Positions 490-29,134 are shown, counted from the first letter of the stretch. The stretch: DNA of 32,378 nt from Gammaproteobacteria bacterium (GCA_011051755.1 DRKN01000006.1:1-32378), one strand, 5' to 3'. Notes: generated from the sequence alone by a model not told the origin. Numbers and translations are program-made.

Positions 490-3414
490 ATGACCAGCCC
501 AAAGCATCACCCCGCATTCCAACATCTGCGCAGCCAGCCTATCGATTCCCTCAACCTCACGGTGGAAGAATACGAACACCGTGAAACCGGCGCCAAGCAC
601 TATCACCTGTCTTCGGACAACAGCGAAAACGTCTTTCTCGTCGCCCTGCGCACGCTACCCACGGATTCCACCGGCGTCGCCCATATCCTCGAACACACTG
701 CGTTGTGTGGCAGTGAACACTACCCGGTGCGCGATCCTTTCTTCATGATGATCCGCCGTTCGCTGAACACCTTCATGAACGCCTTCACCAGCAGCGACTG
801 GACCGCCTACCCCTTCGCCAGCCAGAACCGCAAGGATTTTTTCAACCTCATGGACGTGTATCTCGACGCGGTGTTCTTCTCCACCCTGCACGCACTGGAT
901 TTCGCCCAGGAAGGCCACCGGCTGGAATTCGCCGAGGCCGACAATCCCGACACGGAGCTGCAATTCAAGGGCGTGGTGTTCAATGAAATGAAAGGCGCCA
1001 TGAGTTCTCCGGTCAGCACCCTGTGGCAGACCCTGACCAAATATCTGTTCCCCACCACCACCTATCACCACAACAGTGGCGGCGAACCCCAGGAAATTCC
1101 CGACCTCAGCTATGCGGCACTGAAGGCCTTCTACCGTACCCACTACCATCCGTCGAATGCCATTTTGATGACCTCGGGTAATATTCCCGCCGCAGAGCAT
1201 CAGCAACGCTTCGAAGAACGCGCCCTGAGCCGCTTTCAGCGCGCCGACAAGCGCATCATCGTCACTGACGAAAAACGCTACTACGCCCCCATCGCCGTTG
1301 AAGAATCCTATGCCCTGGAAGAAGCCGGGATGGATGGCGACAAGACCCACATCGTGCTCGGCTGGTTATTGGGCCACAGCACCGATCTGCAAGCCGGGCT
1401 GCGCGCCGAACTGTTGTCCGGCGTCTTGCTGGATGACGGCGCCGCGCCTCTGCGCCGCGCCCTGGAAACCACCGACCTGGGCACCGCCCCCTCACCCCTG
1501 TGCGGACTGGAGAACAGTAACCGCGAGATGAGTTTCATGGCCGGGCTGGAAGGCAGCCGCCCCGAACACGCGACCGCCGTGGAACAACTGATCCTGGATA
1601 CGCTCAGCGATGTGGCCAAAAACGGCGTGCCACAGGAACGCGTCGAATCCGCCCTGCACCAGCTCGAACTGGCCCAGCGCGAGGTCGGTGGCGGTCATTA
1701 TCCCTACGGCCTGCAGTTGATCCTCGACGCCCTGCCCTCCGCCATCCACTACGGTGACCCGGTGGCCTCACTGGATCTGGACGAGGCCATCGAACAGCTG
1801 CGTGAAGACATCCGCGACACGGATTTCATCCCCGCCCTGATCCGCGAATGGTTCCTCGACAACCCGCACCGGGTGCGCTTGACCCTAAAACCGGACACCG
1901 AACTGGCCGCGCGCCGTGACGCCGACGAACGCGCCCGCCTGGCGCGCATCAAGGCCGGTCTGAGCGCGGCGGAAAAACAACACATCGTCACCCGGGCCCA
2001 ACAGCTCGCCGAACGACAGAGGCAGGAAGACGATGCTGACATCCTGCCCAAGGTCGGACTGGAAGACGTACCGGCCGAGATGCCCATCGCCGGGGGCAGA
2101 ACCGATACCATCAACGACATCCCCTGCAGCCTCTTCGAACAGGGCACCAACGGTCTGATCTACCAGCAGGTGGTCGTCAACCTGCCGCCGCTCGATGATG
2201 AACTGCTGGCGGTACTGCCCTACTACACCCACTGCCTCACCGAGCTGGGCTGCGGCCAGCGCGATTACCTCGACACCCAGGCCTGGCAGACCCGGGTCAG
2301 CGGTGGCCTGTCCGCCTACAGCAGCGTGCGCGGGAAGATCGATGACGTGCAGAGCGTGTCCGGCTACCTGATCCTCTCGGGCAAGGCCCTGTCGCGTAAT
2401 CACCGTGAATTTGCCGAGCTACTGCGCGCCTCCTTCAATGAAGTACGCTTCGACGAACTGCCACGCATCCGCGAACTGATGGCGCAGCTGCGCGCCGGTC
2501 GTGAACAGGGCGTCACCGGACGCGGCCACAGCCTCGCCATGCAGGCCGCCAGTAGTGGCATGAGTCCCGCCGCCGCACTGAGCCATCGGCAGTCCGGGCT
2601 GCTCGGCATACAGACGCTGAAATCCGTGGATGACGGCCTCGATGAAACGAAAAATCTCGCCGCACTGGCGGAAAAACTGCACCGACTACACCAACAAGTC
2701 GTGGCCTCTGAGCGGCAATTCCTGCTGATTGGTGAATCACAAAGCCTGACCCAGCTGAAACAAGATACCGCCGAGCAATGGCCTGCGGCGCCCACACAGG
2801 ACACCACACCCTTCGGCCTGCCCAAGGTAAAGGAGACGGTGCGCGCCCTGTGGACCACCAGTACCTCCGTCAACTTTTGCGCCAAGGCCTACCCCACGGT
2901 ACCGGTGGAACACCCGGATGCCGCGCCACTGACGGTACTGGCGGGCTTCCTGCGCAACGGCTTCCTGCACCGCACCATCCGCGAGCAGGGTGGCGCCTAT
3001 GGCGGTGGCGCCAGCCAGGATTGCAGCACGGCCAGCTTCCGTTTCTATTCCTATCGCGACCCGCGTCTGGAGGAAACGCTGCAAGATTTCGACCATGCCA
3101 TCGACTGGTTGCTCAACGAGGAACACGAACCCCGCCAGTTGGAAGAGGCCATCCTCGGCGTCATCGGCCAACTGGACAAACCCAGCTCACCGGCCGGCGA
3201 AGCCAAGGACGCCTTCCACAACCAGCTGCACGGCCGCACACCGGCACAGCGCCAGCGGTATCGCCAACACCTGCTGACAGTCACCCTGGAGGATCTGCAA
3301 CGTGTCGGAAAAACCTACTTGCGTGCAGAAAACGCCAGCATTGCGGTCATTAGCAATCCAGGCGCGGAGGAGAAGACTGCCCGCTCACTGGGTCTCGACA
3401 TCCACGCGCTGTAA
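490..3414 (+). CDS. M16C zinc metallopeptidase (presequence protease / insulinase-like)
   Basis: 974 residues, the usual length for the PreP/Cym1 branch of insulinase-type (pitrilysin-superfamily) peptidases, which degrade short unfolded peptides inside a closed chamber. The inverted zinc motif HILEH is at residues 65-69 (two His ligands and the catalytic Glu), and the third ligand is the Glu of NEMKG near residue 166. The second half of the protein is the catalytically inactive homologous repeat. Near its end is the substrate-binding REQGGAYGGGA segment (about residues 830-840), typical of the family. No signal peptide is visible, so a cytoplasmic role in peptide turnover is likely; the exact substrate is unknown. 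The ATG lacks a clear ribosome binding site, but the N-terminus (FQHLRSQ...LNLTVEEYEH) looks like family starts. It is monocistronic and converges with the ATPase gene that follows. Confidence 0.9.
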   Translation: MTSPKHHPAFQHLRSQPIDSLNLTVEEYEHRETGAKHYHLSSDNSENVFLVALRTLPTDSTGVAHILEHTALCGSEHYPVRDPFFMMIRRSLNTFMNAFTSSDWTAYPFASQNRKDFFNLMDVYLDAVFFSTLHALDFAQEGHRLEFAEADNPDTELQFKGVVFNEMKGAMSSPVSTLWQTLTKYLFPTTTYHHNSGGEPQEIPDLSYAALKAFYRTHYHPSNAILMTSGNIPAAEHQQRFEERALSRFQRADKRIIVTDEKRYYAPIAVEESYALEEAGMDGDKTHIVLGWLLGHSTDLQAGLRAELLSGVLLDDGAAPLRRALETTDLGTAPSPLCGLENSNREMSFMAGLEGSRPEHATAVEQLILDTLSDVAKNGVPQERVESALHQLELAQREVGGGHYPYGLQLILDALPSAIHYGDPVASLDLDEAIEQLREDIRDTDFIPALIREWFLDNPHRVRLTLKPDTELAARRDADERARLARIKAGLSAAEKQHIVTRAQQLAERQRQEDDADILPKVGLEDVPAEMPIAGGRTDTINDIPCSLFEQGTNGLIYQQVVVNLPPLDDELLAVLPYYTHCLTELGCGQRDYLDTQAWQTRVSGGLSAYSSVRGKIDDVQSVSGYLILSGKALSRNHREFAELLRASFNEVRFDELPRIRELMAQLRAGREQGVTGRGHSLAMQAASSGMSPAAALSHRQSGLLGIQTLKSVDDGLDETKNLAALAEKLHRLHQQVVASERQFLLIGESQSLTQLKQDTAEQWPAAPTQDTTPFGLPKVKETVRALWTTSTSVNFCAKAYPTVPVEHPDAAPLTVLAGFLRNGFLHRTIREQGGAYGGGASQDCSTASFRFYSYRDPRLEETLQDFDHAIDWLLNEEHEPRQLEEAILGVIGQLDKPSSPAGEAKDAFHNQLHGRTPAQRQRYRQHLLTVTLEDLQRVGKTYLRAENASIAVISNPGAEEKTARSLGLDIHAL

Positions 3415-3650
3415 ACCAGCGGATATAAAAAACACCCACGACTCGGCACCACAGAGGCGCAGAAAATACAGAGAATACATCGAAGGAATAAACAGCGAGG
3501 GAAGGATCAGGCTGGTGTCGCAAGAGGGACATCCAACTCCTCGGTGGACTGCGTATCCCTGTGGTGGATCGGATAATGACGAACGCCCTTCGATACGAAG
3601 ACCAACGGGCGTTTCGCGTATCCGTTCGTATTGAAGAAAGCGACCTCGAA
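3415..3650. other. Convergent intergenic spacer with a degenerate dispersed repeat and a hairpin
   Basis: At 3449-3463 is the string CCACAGAGGCGCAGA, whose last 14 bases recur at 13845-13858 in the repeat cluster between tmk and mltG. It appears to be a degenerate copy of a dispersed GCACAGAG-type repeat. Near 3580-3616 the arms AACGCCC and GGGCGTT form a hairpin that could end transcription of the leftward ATPase gene. It has no T-run, so this is tentative. Confidence 0.4.
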
Positions 3651-6600
3651 CTACTCCACAAACGCAAAATGGACAATGCGCGCCAACCCCTTGCGCGGCT
3701 CGACCTGTACCTGCAAGGTACCCCGATAGACATCGACAGCGCCGTGTTTTTCAGCCTGTACCTCGACCACATAGTCGCTCTCGCCGCGCGCGACGCCATC
3801 TTCCAAAACCCAGCGCAGATTCTGTAATTCCATACGCCGCGCCACGGTGCTGTCGAACAGGCTCTGATAATCCTTGCGAATACCCGCAACCATGGAGCGG
3901 TCATTGCTGGCGGCATCACTGGAGAAAAGATCCATAAAAGCATCGATATCACCCGCCTCGTAGTAAACCACCAGCGCGCTCATCAAGGGGTTCAGGTCTG
4001 CCTCCGACAGAGGCGGATTACTGGCTGCCGGCTGGCTGCCCTCAACGGTTTTCATGTTCGAAAAATACAAACGGGAAATCTGTAACCCGGCGTCCCCTTT
4101 CGTCACCTGCAGCGTCACCTTGCCCGACGTCAAAATGGGAGCCTCGGCATCCGCAGGCAAGATCGTCGCCTGGAATTCCCCGCGGCCGCGCGCAAAGGTG
4201 TCATCCCGCATCCAACTCAGGTCACTGAAAACCATATTACGCTTATCCGTCGTGGTGAAGATTTTTTCATATTCCGTGCGAATACCCTCTCCCGTGGTTT
4301 GCGTATCCGTGCGCGCCTTGCGGTAAAACAGGGACATGATTCCATTCAGGTTCCCATTTTCGTAGTGAGCGAGAAACCGATCCACCAGCTGCACCAAGTC
4401 CGTCTCGGTGATACCGCTCGCAACCGCCGCCATATTGGGTCTGGCCTCAGACATCGCGGCATTTCTCTCGCTGAGCACCTGTTCGGCGGCCGCCGCGGCA
4501 CGCGCATCAGCCTCGGCCTTTGCCCGTGCCTTGGCCTCGTTCGCTGCCTGGATCCGGGCTTCCTCTTCAGCCCTGGCCCGGGCACGCGCCTCGGCGGCAG
4601 CCCGGGCTTCAGCAGCGGCCTTCGCTTCCTCTTCCGCCTTCTTTCGCGCAGCAGCTGCCTGCCGGGCGACCTCTGCCTGCCGTGCAATCTCTTCCTTTCG
4701 CGCAGCCTCGGCGGCGGCCTGAGCACTGGCCGACAAAGCAAACGACTCATCGCCCAGCTCATTGTCCCTCACCACGGAAGAAACAGCGCCTTGCCAGGCA
4801 TCACCGGCCGTATCAGCAGACATCGCCACAGGCATGTCTTCATCCATTGCCGGATTCTGCGAAAGACCCCGCAAATTCCCCTCGTCGACACGCCCCACCG
4901 CCGGCGCCACGACAGGCGGCGGATCCTCGGGCACGACTTGATGCGCAGGCTCGGCAGGCGCCGTGCTCACCGGCGTCTTGCTGTCCCGGTCACGAATTTG
5001 TGTGACATAGAGAACCAGCAACACCACCACGAGACAGGAAACAACAACCACATGGCGAATATGCACACCGGAACTCCCATCATCGATCTCGACGAAAGCA
5101 TCCCTTTGCTCGCTGGCAGCCTGTGGCATGGAAAGATTGACGGCATCCGGCGCCTTCGGCGCCACATCCAGATCCAGATCACCAATATTATTGATGGCCT
5201 CGATATCACTCAGGGCCGGATTCTCAGTGCCATTGCTGGTTGCAGGCCTTTGCTCACCCCGGCACAAATGTTCATAGGCCGAGCCAATCCGGCTGACACC
5301 GCTATCGACGACGCCGGCATTGTCGTGACGCAGGAGGCGCATCAACAGGCCGTAATTGATTTCAATTTCAGTCAGCGAGGCGCCCTGCTGCAGACCCAGC
5401 ACACGGTAATCATCGCTACCCGGGACAAACATCACACGCCGCACAAAGAAACGCACGGCGGCACGCAGCATGGCGGGGGAAATCCCCATCACGGAAATCT
5501 GCCGCAAATCCCGTAATACCTCATCGTCGGAAACGGCCAACTGCAAAATATTTCGCACGCCGCGGGGCAGCGGCTGGGTCGCGTCGTCCAATCCCGGGAA
5601 ACTGCGTGGAGAACGATGAAATGCCAATACCAGACGCAGGATCTTGCGTGTCGTCACTTCTTCCGTGTCGCCGGGCGCATCCGGCAATGGCGCCAACACC
5701 ACGGGTTGGCGCTTGTCCACATCCGTCCCACGACCGCCGGGAATGACCCGAAAACGATCCTGCTGGCCAGGCTTCGCCTCTTCGTCGAGTGGTTTTTCAG
5801 GTGACCCGGCCTCTGCGGCAATCTCTGTGGGCCCACCTTCGGTCTCATCGGGGTCGGCCTGCGGTACCGGCCGGGTCCAGCTATCATCGGGAACGGCACG
5901 ATCCAGTACACTGTCGTCAGGCACCGAGGCCTTACCGCCATCATCGACGGCGTGACCCGCTGCCGGTTCCATCAGTGACTGCTCGGCACTGGCCAACTCA
6001 AACACATCGGGGGGCGGATCCGTGTTGGTGACATCACGCACAGTCCCGGCGGGTTGCGGCGATGCTTCTTCGGCCGCATGCCGGGCCTTTTCCCGCAAGG
6101 CCGCCGCCAGTTTTTCGCTGCTGCCGTGAAGCTCCTCGGACTCCGGGGCCTCTGTCTCAGAGGATTCTGCCGAGGTGTCCGTGACCGCCTCCTGCCCCCC
6201 TTTCTGCGGCACGGCCTGTGCGACAGACTCTTCCACATCACGGCCAACATCGAACGAATCATCGTGCAACAGGCTTTCCGCCGGCCTTTCGACGGACGGT
6301 GGCCGGCCAGAAACCTCCTGACCCAGTTCGTCGGTCACCTGATGAAGAATGGTGTTATTCACCTCATGCTTTTCTTCCAGGAAACTGAACAACAGTACCC
6401 GGTCGCAGAGCATGTTGATGCGGCGGGGGACGCCCTCAGAATATTTGTAGATACTCTCGAAGGCCTGTTCGGTAAAGCTGGGATCATTCTGCCAGCCAAC
6501 CTGCCTGAGGCGGCTCTCGACATAGCTGCGGCATTCATCGGGGGCAAGGGCGCTGAGATGGTAGTTGGCGATCACCCGCTGGCGCAACTGTTCAAGATCC

Positions 6601-7121
6601 GGATGTTCCAGCTTCTGGCGAAACTGGGGCTGGCCCAACAGGAAGGTTTGCAGCAGCGCCTTGTCGCCCACTTGCAGATTGGACAGCATGCGCAGCTCTT
6701 CCAGAGAGCGGGCGGGCAGATTCTGTGCCTCGTCAACCACCAACAGGGCCCGTTTGCGCTCCCGCGCACGGGCCAACAGGAAGGCCTCCAGGGTCTTCAG
6801 CAGGGCGGCCTTGTCCATGCCTTCATAGCGCAGGCCGAAGGATGCGGAGACCATGCGCAGCATTTCGTCCGCTTCCAGCTGGGTGGTGGTGAGATGCGCG
6901 ACGACCAGATGCTGCTGATCCATTTCTTTCAGCAGTATCTGCGCCAGGGTGGTCTTGCCGGTACCAGGATCGCCGGTAATCACCACAAAGCCTTCGCCCT
7001 GGCTGAGCCCATAGCGTAAATAGGCCAAGGCCCGCCTGTGGCCCCGACTGGGGTAAAAAAAGCCCGAATCGGGACTCAGGCGGAAAGGCTTGGCGCGCAG
7101 TTTATAGAATGACTCATACAA
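3651..7121 (-). CDS. ExeA/exosortase-locus type ATPase fused to J-like, TM, TolA-like helix and two NTF2-like domains
   Basis: 1156 residues from a TTG start at 7121. That start is chosen because AAGGAA (7129-7134) lies 7 bases upstream and the protein then begins LYESFYKLRAKPFRLSPD, the usual start of ExeA/GspA-like and XrtA-locus ATPases. The longer GTG frame from 7208 adds 29 atypical residues and has no ribosome binding site. Domains: AAA ATPase, about 1-265 (Walker A GDPGTGKTT near 50-58, Walker B LLVVDEAQ near 126-133, then SNLQVGDKALLQ and GVPRRIN); an acidic, Pro-rich linker to about 490; a J-domain-like stretch, about 568-622 (YRVLGL...GSAYEHL) in which HPD is replaced by HDN; one membrane segment, about 690-709; an Ala/Lys/Glu/Arg-rich helix, about 800-890, resembling the TolA stalk; and two tandem NTF2/SnoaL-like domains, about 907-1022 and 1036-1156, sharing GIRTEYEKIF/GIRKDYQSLF. 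The inferred topology is a cytoplasmic ATPase with a periplasmic C-terminus, by analogy with ExeA. No exosortase, pilus or type II secretion genes are adjacent. The function is unknown. Confidence 0.8.
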   Translation of the reverse strand: MYESFYKLRAKPFRLSPDSGFFYPSRGHRRALAYLRYGLSQGEGFVVITGDPGTGKTTLAQILLKEMDQQHLVVAHLTTTQLEADEMLRMVSASFGLRYEGMDKAALLKTLEAFLLARARERKRALLVVDEAQNLPARSLEELRMLSNLQVGDKALLQTFLLGQPQFRQKLEHPDLEQLRQRVIANYHLSALAPDECRSYVESRLRQVGWQNDPSFTEQAFESIYKYSEGVPRRINMLCDRVLLFSFLEEKHEVNNTILHQVTDELGQEVSGRPPSVERPAESLLHDDSFDVGRDVEESVAQAVPQKGGQEAVTDTSAESSETEAPESEELHGSSEKLAAALREKARHAAEEASPQPAGTVRDVTNTDPPPDVFELASAEQSLMEPAAGHAVDDGGKASVPDDSVLDRAVPDDSWTRPVPQADPDETEGGPTEIAAEAGSPEKPLDEEAKPGQQDRFRVIPGGRGTDVDKRQPVVLAPLPDAPGDTEEVTTRKILRLVLAFHRSPRSFPGLDDATQPLPRGVRNILQLAVSDDEVLRDLRQISVMGISPAMLRAAVRFFVRRVMFVPGSDDYRVLGLQQGASLTEIEINYGLLMRLLRHDNAGVVDSGVSRIGSAYEHLCRGEQRPATSNGTENPALSDIEAINNIGDLDLDVAPKAPDAVNLSMPQAASEQRDAFVEIDDGSSGVHIRHVVVVSCLVVVLLVLYVTQIRDRDSKTPVSTAPAEPAHQVVPEDPPPVVAPAVGRVDEGNLRGLSQNPAMDEDMPVAMSADTAGDAWQGAVSSVVRDNELGDESFALSASAQAAAEAARKEEIARQAEVARQAAAARKKAEEEAKAAAEARAAAEARARARAEEEARIQAANEAKARAKAEADARAAAAAEQVLSERNAAMSEARPNMAAVASGITETDLVQLVDRFLAHYENGNLNGIMSLFYRKARTDTQTTGEGIRTEYEKIFTTTDKRNMVFSDLSWMRDDTFARGRGEFQATILPADAEAPILTSGKVTLQVTKGDAGLQISRLYFSNMKTVEGSQPAASNPPLSEADLNPLMSALVVYYEAGDIDAFMDLFSSDAASNDRSMVAGIRKDYQSLFDSTVARRMELQNLRWVLEDGVARGESDYVVEVQAEKHGAVDVYRGTLQVQVEPRKGLARIVHFAFVE

Positions 7122-7128
7122 TGTGAAA

Positions 7129-7134
7129 TTCCTT
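7129..7134 (-). promoter_or_regulatory. Ribosome binding site deciding the TTG start of the fusion ATPase
   Basis: On the minus strand AAGGAA stands 7 bases before a TTG (7119-7121). The TTG is followed by codons matching the conserved family N-terminus. The alternative upstream GTG (7208) has no such sequence. Together these support initiation at the TTG. Confidence 0.6.
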
Positions 7135-7240
7135 TCATCGACTCTACCGTTGAATTTCCACGTTAGCGGACGGAGATCACGGATCTTCAGTTCACCCGGA
7201 GCAGGCACAGGAACTCGGATCCTGAGGACTGAACCTCATA

Positions 7241-7397: not shown

Positions 7398-8402
7398 ATG
7401 AAAAAAAAGAAGGCCGTGCTCGTCACCGGCGGCGCCGGCTATATCGGCAGCCACGTGGTCAAACAACTGGGCGAGGCCGGAGAACGGGTCGTCATCCTCG
7501 ACAACCTCTCTACGGGCTTTAAAGATTCCGTCCTGCACGGCGAGCTGGTGATCGGTGACACCGGCGACCAGGCCCTGATCAGCCAGTTGTTGCACGATTA
7601 TGACATCGGCTCGGTACTGCACTTCGCGGCCCACACCATCGTCCCCGAATCCGTCTCTAACCCACTGAAATACTACGGAAACAACACCTGCAACTCGCGC
7701 AACCTGCTGGCCTGCTGCGAACAGGCCGGCGTCGATCACGTCATTTTTTCCTCGACTGCCGCGGTCTACGGCATCCCCGAGACCGACAGTGCCCGCGAGG
7801 ACACGCCCACCGCACCCATCAACGCCTACGGCACATCGAAGCTGATGACCGAATGGATGCTGCGTGACCTCTCCCAGGCCTCCAGCCTCCGCCATGTGGC
7901 GCTACGCTACTTCAACGTCGCCGGCTCCGATCCGCAGACGCGTATTGGCCAATCCACCCGCAAAGCCACCCTGCTGATCAAGGTGGCCTGTGAGACCGCC
8001 GTCGGTAAACGTGACAGGATCTGCATCTTCGGCACCGACTATCCGACCCCGGACGGCACCGGCATCCGCGACTACATCCACGTCGAGGATCTTGCCAGCG
8101 CCCACCTCAAGGCCCTCGACTACCTGCGCAGGGGCGGTGAGTCCACTACCCTGAACTGCGGCTACGGCCATGGCTACAGCGTGCGTGAGGTGCTGGATGC
8201 CGTGCAACGCGTCAATGGAGAACCGCTGAATATCGTCGAAGAACCACGCCGTGCCGGTGATCCGCCGCTGCTGGTGGCCGGCGTCGAGCGCATCCATGAA
8301 ACCCTGGACTGGACACCGCAGTACGACAACCTCGACGTCATCGTCAAGACCTCCCTGGACTGGGAGCGTAAATTGCTTGAACTTGAAAAAACCGACGTCT
8401 GA
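7398..8402 (+). CDS. galE: UDP-glucose 4-epimerase
   Basis: 334 residues, the normal size for GalE, an extended short-chain dehydrogenase that interconverts UDP-glucose and UDP-galactose for surface polysaccharide synthesis and galactose use. The NAD-binding glycine motif TGGAGYIGSH is at the N-terminus (about residues 10-19). The catalytic Ser lies in FSSTAAVYG (about 117-125), the Tyr/Lys pair in YGTSK (about 143-147), and ALRYFNVAGSDP (about 167-178) is characteristic of GalE. It stands alone, without other sugar genes beside it, so its role in a particular polysaccharide is not evident. It converges with the serine protease gene, leaving only 7 bases between the stop codons. A closely related UDP-N-acetylglucosamine epimerase cannot be fully excluded. 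Confidence 0.93.
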   Translation: MKKKKAVLVTGGAGYIGSHVVKQLGEAGERVVILDNLSTGFKDSVLHGELVIGDTGDQALISQLLHDYDIGSVLHFAAHTIVPESVSNPLKYYGNNTCNSRNLLACCEQAGVDHVIFSSTAAVYGIPETDSAREDTPTAPINAYGTSKLMTEWMLRDLSQASSLRHVALRYFNVAGSDPQTRIGQSTRKATLLIKVACETAVGKRDRICIFGTDYPTPDGTGIRDYIHVEDLASAHLKALDYLRRGGESTTLNCGYGHGYSVREVLDAVQRVNGEPLNIVEEPRRAGDPPLLVAGVERIHETLDWTPQYDNLDVIVKTSLDWERKLLELEKTDV

Positions 8403-28218: not shown

Positions 28219-29134
28219 AGCGTCGAAGAGGTAGCCGCGAATGCGGCAAAATGTTTGCGCGCCCCGGTTAGCGCGAAAGCGGCCTGAGACCTTTTGCTTC
28301 ACCTTGACCATGCGCACATCGCGTTCAGCCAGGTTGTGATCAAAGGGCAGTGAGACGTCGTATAAAAACGCCAGCACCTTTGTGGTTTACCAAACGATCA
28401 TGGAGATTTTTAACTTTGTGCTGTTTCGGCCTTCCGCGTTTCTTGTTTTTATCGACAGGTAACAGCGGAAGCTCATCGCGGCCCGCGCGCAACAGGCGAC
28501 TGTAACACCGATCAAAGTAGGTGATGCGCGATGCCATTAGTGATGGTGCGTTAGCCGCCTTGGCATCATCGACTTCCCGCTTGGCACCCAATAAGCACTG
28601 GCTCAGTTCGGCAACCCACTGCTGTTGATGCTGCGTCACACTTCCGCCGGAAACTCGGCCTTGACGCGAACGGCACAATGGGAAGCAGGTTTTGATCTGT
28701 ACGCAGTGCACTGTGACGCAAACGTTAATCTCTACAAGATCGAAGACTTGGCGTGCTTCATGCTGAATCGATGCTTGCTGTGACAAGTCCGCATGACAGT
28801 GGTTACATTGAGTGACCGCGTGTTCCTGAGCATGGTTCGGATGCTCGACCTGTTTTAACGTGCTGCCCTTGTGTCCGGGTTGCCCTCCACTTTTACGCCC
28901 ACTCTTTTTGCGCGGGCTTTTTGGCTTGGGTTTGCCATAACCATCACTGGAAGGTGGTTTGCTGCTATTACGGCTGTTCTTGGCCAGCTTGTTTTTTAGC
29001 GCCTCGATCTCTTTTTCCAACCCGGTGATACGGGCACACTGAACGTGCAAGCGTTCAACCTGCTTCGAGAGCAGAATGATCAACTCATCTTATTCTGTGT
29101 GGCTGAGGGTCTTTAGATCGGGCAGGGGTTGCAT
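28216..29134 (-). pseudogene. IS66-family transposase (TnpC), decayed remnant
   Basis: Read on the minus strand from the ATG at 29134 (MQPLPDLKTLSHTE), the frame is stopped by TAA at codon 15 (29090-29092) and continues DELIILLSKQVERL, the typical IS66 N-terminus. The KNSRNSSKPPSSDG motif and the zinc-binding CNHCH region follow. Around 28665 the frame shifts (KAEFPAEV is in another frame). At about 28638 the central part holding the first two catalytic Asp residues is missing, and the sequence resumes in the late region (QQWVAELSQ...FDRCYSRLL). A further shift near 28380 moves the C-terminal block ([23 protein letters not shown], with the catalytic Glu) to another frame, ending at 28216. It cannot encode an active transposase. 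GGCTGAGTAGTTAC at 29191-29204 may be one IS end; the other end and a target duplication were not found. Confidence 0.85.

Follow-up and report, generated by a model that had tools for sequence, protein, structure and literature searches.

The locus considered here raises the question of what a bacterium might do with a single protein in which an exosortase-type ATPase, a J-like domain, a membrane segment and two NTF2-like domains follow one another in one chain. It lies on a stretch of 32,378 nucleotides from a genome recorded as Gammaproteobacteria bacterium (GCA_011051755.1, DRKN01000006.1:1-32378), the whole of which is referred to below as the window, and all results are computational, obtained from sequence, predicted structures and gene neighbourhoods. 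An open frame occupies positions 3651-7208 on the minus strand, within which the gene (3651..7121) runs from a TTG at 7121 to 3654 plus the stop codon. Alignment showed this TTG to be a conserved start, homologues opening with MYESFY or VYENFY, and because conservation begins at that point a protein of 1156 amino acids is the likely product. A preliminary description of the same DNA had proposed an ATPase, a J-like domain without HPD, one membrane segment, an Ala-rich stalk and twin NTF2-like domains; all of these are present and in the order claimed, with a linker between the ATPase and a module, termed HJ here, that contains the J-like domain.

An unusual chain of this kind could be the product of a faulty assembly, of a frameshift or of a decaying gene, and in one genome (G014) the fusion gene is indeed broken into two frames. 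The gene is nevertheless uninterrupted in independent metagenome-assembled genomes (MAGs) of several genera with dN/dS below 1 throughout, and such an origin, contradicted by this conservation across genera, is scarcely credible. Each of the seven genomes of the window's genus has the full architecture, split over contigs in three of them (G002, G004 and G006), and most genera of the family also keep it; the 16 related loci compared were from MAGs recorded as Chromatiales, Ectothiorhodospiraceae or Gammaproteobacteria. Within the genus dN/dS was 0.04-0.07 for the ATPase, 0.02-0.10 for HJ and 0.10-0.24 for the NTF2-like heads, and reached 0.27-0.47 in the linker and stalk (0.27-0.45 for the linker). 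The fusion protein is therefore real and conserved among bacteria, and in the window's genus it is under strong purifying selection.

Profile scores place residues 1-270 (6312..7121, minus strand, as are all features of the protein) among the AAA ATPases of the XrtA/PEP-CTERM-associated type, TIGR03015. The window protein scored 369.3 bits against a curated cut-off of 324.5 with the whole model covered, and the Pfam family AAA_22 gave 87 bits in the same region. Key residues of both nucleotide-binding motifs were invariant across 15 homologues: Walker A, GDPGTGKTT (residues 50-58, 6948..6974), varied only at residue 51 and in Walker B, LLVVDE (residues 126-131, 6729..6746), D130 and E131 did not vary. 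TIGR03015 members over the cut-off are mostly frames of about 290-455 amino acids, whereas the window protein has ~890 further residues and lies outside an XrtA locus. Other combinations of this ATPase were also encountered, with an OmpA-like C-terminal end, judged from a motif by eye, at L145:6809-9067, L146:7186-9366 and L147:7286-9511, and in one frame with an apparent UDP-GlcNAc 2-epimerase at L057:8886-11105.

The ATPase is followed by an acidic, poorly conserved and putatively cytoplasmic linker (residues 271-484, 5670..6311) and then by HJ (residues 488-628), which is conserved as one module. Its first part is an uncharacterised helical domain (residues 488-567, 'LRLVLAFHRSPRSFPGLDD...VMGISPAMLRAAVRFFVRR', 5421..5660) that had no match in a Pfam profile search and that stays conserved along with the J domain in another family, where identity falls to 23%. 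The second part (about residues 568-628, 5238..5420) is J-like. Pfam DnaJ gave a sub-threshold 15.5 bits with the window's own domain; it matched 13 of the 15 aligned members, at best with 2.8e-12, and the alignment profile found solved J domains in the PDB at 1.5e-9. Structure predictions covered two regions, HJ and the NTF2-like heads. The AlphaFold model of HJ was moderate (pLDDT 69) and J domains were its top fold hits with a probability of 0.99, but since the Foldseek E value of 0.5 was not significant the assignment rests on the profile match. A working J domain carries the motif H-P-D. At this site (residues 598-600, 5322..5330) the window protein has R-H-D, and among the aligned relatives HPD is intact only in L110, L123 and L125, with QPD in L056 and L115 and degenerate forms in the others. 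As judged from these profiles and alignments a J fold is present without the motif of a functional J, which bears out the earlier claim of a J-like domain lacking HPD. The likeness to DnaJ and other J-domain proteins extends to the fold, whereas the window's lineage differs in the loss of HPD, in membrane anchoring and in the new helical domain ahead of J. One relative has the HJ module duplicated within a single protein (L124:7384-9963).

A hydropathy scan revealed one strongly hydrophobic segment, at residues 691-709 (4995..5051), from which an N-in/C-out orientation is suggested, with the ATPase and HJ predicted to be cytoplasmic and the heads periplasmic. Between this segment and the heads is a stalk rich in Ala, Glu and Arg (about residues 786-890, 4452..4766), in which 44 of 105 residues (42%) are Ala. 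The stalk had been described as TolA-like, and it does resemble that of TolA in being Ala-rich, probably helical and presumably periplasmic, but the TolA family model gave 36 bits where its cut-off is 59.45, with a match confined to the stalk, and the end of the window protein is NTF2-like instead of a TolA C-terminal domain. The stalk is also unconserved, being kept in part of the family only and swapped for unrelated sequence in L052, L053 and L056, so that "TolA-like" describes composition only. Membership of the TolA family was accordingly rejected, while the Ala-rich stalk itself stands.

The two heads, at residues 898-1021 (4059..4430) and 1031-1156 (3654..4031), were recognised from models, fold matches and profile matches. 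Their AlphaFold mean pLDDT was 84.5, the order of helices and strands is that of the NTF2 fold and a fold search returned 634 PDB matches at E <= 0.001, so that the predicted structure confirmed the tandem NTF2-like domains of the preliminary description; on this evidence the heads are members of the NTF2-like superfamily. The folds matched are often enzymes, from which no enzymatic role is claimed for the heads, and weak profile matches to the NTF2 domains of PBP2a/PBP5, to 4xzz and to Cds6_C are weak leads to a ligand. Two relatives (L045 and L056) have one head instead of two. Two NTF2-like domains were also seen at L153:4324-6012, where the adjoining genes look, on inspection by eye, like those for type VI secretion.

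Among studied proteins the closest layout is that of ExeA, a cytoplasmic ATPase with a peptidoglycan-binding periplasmic domain that is needed for assembly of the ExeD secretin (PMC4098917). Like ExeA/GspA the window protein has an AAA ATPase, putatively cytoplasmic and complete with both Walker motifs, one membrane segment and a predicted periplasmic end. It differs in having HJ and tandem NTF2-like heads in place of a PG_binding domain, none of which was among its 25 best Pfam matches (all in the ATPase region), and in lacking secretion neighbours, no ExeB/GspB gene being seen among the genes adjacent to it. The best reading is that it is ExeA-like in layout and not an ExeA. There is good support for the more general proposal, a trans-envelope device that uses energy and whose periplasmic end has been replaced, because related ATPases carry OmpA-like or NTF2 ends at the same place. 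A part in a type IV pilus or in protein secretion, like that of MshM or ExeA, would fit the shared AAA_22 superfamily and a short paralogue in the window's genome (C124, 37% identical) that lies in what was judged by eye to be a pilus/type II-like locus. That paralogue is however a separate gene, no pilus or secretion genes were recognised by eye beside the members examined, and such a role is very unlikely.

Comparison of gene neighbourhoods gives a different indication. In the window it is flanked by a PreP-type M16C peptidase gene (490..3414, plus strand) and by a divergent gene for an NAD-dependent, GalE-like sugar epimerase (7398..8402, plus strand), both conserved neighbours, and 236 bases (3415..3650) separate it from the end of the PreP gene. 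Elsewhere in the window a gene for a DUF6444 protein (28343-29083), possibly a transposon remnant, lies between ordinary housekeeping genes. In sister genera (L047 and L049) the gap is occupied by an operon on the same strand, downstream of the fusion gene. Its genes are for a small secreted product recognised by eye, from its composition, as GfcA/YjbE-like, for YjbH, for a long OPX protein containing SLBB repeats and for a Wzz-type protein in which no kinase domain was detected. In L049 the OPX protein has a GfcC end and the operon also includes an APS kinase; the OPX, Wzz-type and APS kinase genes are co-directional with the fusion gene where examined. In each of the 12 genomes of the family outside the window's genus in which both genes were detected, no more than about 2 kb separates YjbH from the fusion gene. 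The set resembles the group 4 capsule (gfc) and yjbEFGH operons in its GfcA/YjbE-like, YjbH and OPX members, whereas gfcABCDE-etp-etk and yjbEFGH have no such ATPase. GfcD, a homologue of YjbH, is an outer-membrane beta-barrel that binds GfcB and GfcC (PMC8592465), and GfcD/YjbH have a porin-like barrel, their C-terminal halves being similar to the PNAG porin (PMC9603273).

In the window's own genus this operon is gone and the fusion protein alone remains. OPX, YjbH and Wzz genes are absent around the window gene, and no YjbH was detected in any of the genus's seven genomes. A search of the window's genome detected no YjbH, exosortase, TIGR03016 or Poly_export gene, and the same held for G001, G003 and G004. 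These four genomes are draft assemblies, 74-93% complete, which leaves some room for chance loss of the partner genes, although such loss from all four is unlikely. The statement that the protein stands alone without its partners thus holds for the window's genus and for fusions in two other families, but not for the sister genera, in which a polysaccharide operon lies directly downstream.

Another polysaccharide connection is found within the genus, since two of its members (G005 and G006) have exosortases and XrtA polysaccharide loci, that of G005 (L155) with members of TIGR03027, 03007, 03018, 03016 and 03006, PrsT and PrsR, and that of G006 (L157) with a TIGR03018 kinase. None of ten XrtA loci of the family (these two and eight more, one of them partial) contains a TIGR03015 ATPase gene. 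Outside the family, where positions were compared, such a gene was directly adjacent in 25 of the 35 genomes with TIGR03016 over the cut-off. A caveat to be applied is that the ten absences share ancestry and count as one event, not ten. An XrtA locus likewise without the ATPase gene occurs in G224, from another family that has the fusion. Given that the family's loci are without their usual ATPase, the fusion protein may act for them in trans. In G014 a further polysaccharide-like locus (L176:15414-16319) includes a short TIGR03015-type ATPase of its own, with genes for a kinase and a Wzz-type protein next to it.

It might then be argued that the protein is the ATPase of the XrtA/PEP-CTERM system itself, moved to another place and now carrying a new C-terminal half, with the YjbH link secondary. 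The TIGR03015 score, 63% identity to the XrtA-locus ATPase of G044 and the ATPase-less XrtA loci, including those of G005 and G006, which have no YjbH, would all agree with this. However, the XrtA/exosortase setting is missing at the window gene, which adjoins the PreP and epimerase genes, and no exosortase was detected in the window's genome or in four of its genus mates. G097, of the same genus as G224, has both a fused and an XrtA-locus ATPase, and in the ATPase tree the fused clade stands apart from the weakly supported group of short-frame ATPases that includes the XrtA-locus proteins L028 and L180. Relocation of this kind is improbable.

A search with an HJ profile of 369 genomes of the class showed that proteins combining HJ, a single membrane segment and an NTF2-like head at the C-terminus also occur in other families, mostly without the ATPase, and that some of these ATPase-less proteins keep an intact HPD. 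ATPase fusions to HJ-NTF2 were found in the window's family, in a second (L056 and L120) and in a third (L109 and L111, the hydropathy scan giving no membrane segment in L111). The preliminary description would have been wrong had homologues of the C-terminal half always been separate genes; this is not so, the half being joined to the ATPase in over 20 genomes, although it also occurs ATPase-less in other families. A tree of the ATPases groups every HJ-NTF2 fusion in a single clade (97% support) that excludes both the short-frame ATPases and a type without HJ, ATPase-membrane-NTF2; this grouping suggests a single fusion event. The HJ+NTF2 tree requires two changes for the fused forms and does not reject one clade (p 0.158); several independent fusions are thus disfavoured. 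The simplest reading of the two trees is one ancestral fusion between an XrtA-locus-type ATPase and an HJ-membrane-NTF2 protein of the kind often found in exopolysaccharide loci. The type without HJ, ATPase-(membrane)-NTF2 (L143:7950-10514, L144:6927-9254, L149:6937-9381 and L151:7345-9984), is a second kind of fusion, its genes being followed by those for a secreted-looking protein of 211-241 amino acids and a lipoprotein-like protein of ~1000 amino acids.

The settings of the ATPase-less proteins vary. L110 and L124 adjoin genes for Wza (Poly_export), Wzc (Wzz, GNVR, AAA_31) and Wzy_C, with a CpsB gene also near L110; L113 adjoins YjbH and OPX, as by eye does L114; L116 adjoins a sugar transferase. 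No clear polysaccharide neighbour was seen for L119 and L121. On the comparative gene-neighbourhood evidence it is likely that the fusion protein drives surface polysaccharide export or helps to assemble its machinery, and that it does not belong to a pilus or a protein-secretion system; of the three roles first offered, pilus, exopolysaccharide and protein export, the comparison favours that in exopolysaccharide. Specifically, a trans-envelope ATPase that assists the assembly or the operation (gating) of a polysaccharide-export machinery, or exit complex, is the role towards which we lean, with some reserve, because of the ExeA layout and the outer-membrane barrel of GfcD and its YjbH homologue. 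In such a device the ATPase would work as a cytoplasmic ring, HJ would be a docking part that in the window's lineage had lost stimulation of DnaK, and the stalk and heads would cross the periplasm to a putative contact with peptidoglycan, a YjbH-type porin or an OPX protein.

The weak point of the export reading is that strong selection is maintained in genomes without a detected polysaccharide partner, and the fusions outside polysaccharide loci in two other families (L056, L109, L111 and L120) also count against it. Both the latter and the solitary fusion of the window's genus would suit the chief rival explanation, a DamX/ExeA-like factor of the envelope or cell wall in general, with NTF2 heads that anchor through the wall, a role in peptidoglycan remodelling or division and polysaccharide operons as mere frequent neighbours. 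The OmpA-like ends of the same ATPase elsewhere and the weak PBP2a/PBP5, 4xzz and Cds6_C matches of the heads point the same way. Against it, neither a SPOR nor an OmpA domain, any more than PG_binding, was among the 25 best Pfam matches, the YjbH link holds in 12 of 12 family genomes outside the window's genus and several ATPase-less relatives have a polysaccharide setting. The window's genome moreover has a separate gene for a DamX-like paralogue (C17), in which a related ATPase is joined to another kind of C-terminal end, whereas the window protein has an NTF2-like C-terminal part without SPOR and no DamX among the matches listed. A wall factor is accordingly a less likely explanation, though one to be taken seriously, than export.

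A literature search, limited in coverage, found no mention of TIGR03015 and no description of such a domain combination, and the novelty lies in the architecture and in the HJ-membrane-NTF2 family. More tentatively, and with rather less confidence than the export role itself, HJ-membrane-NTF2 may be an unrecognised part of many Gram-negative polysaccharide-export systems, a family of membrane J-proteins in which HPD has been lost in several lineages, and fusion to the ATPase may have made of it a stand-alone trans-envelope motor able to act in trans for two or more export systems. The family is apparently undescribed and ties a J domain, its HPD often lost, to exopolysaccharide loci. It is not settled, to our knowledge, by what route the energy of ATP reaches the steps of polysaccharide export at the outer membrane, and a conserved single chain with an XrtA-type ATPase and a periplasmic head, encoded beside YjbH and OPX, is a concrete candidate for the means by which it does so.
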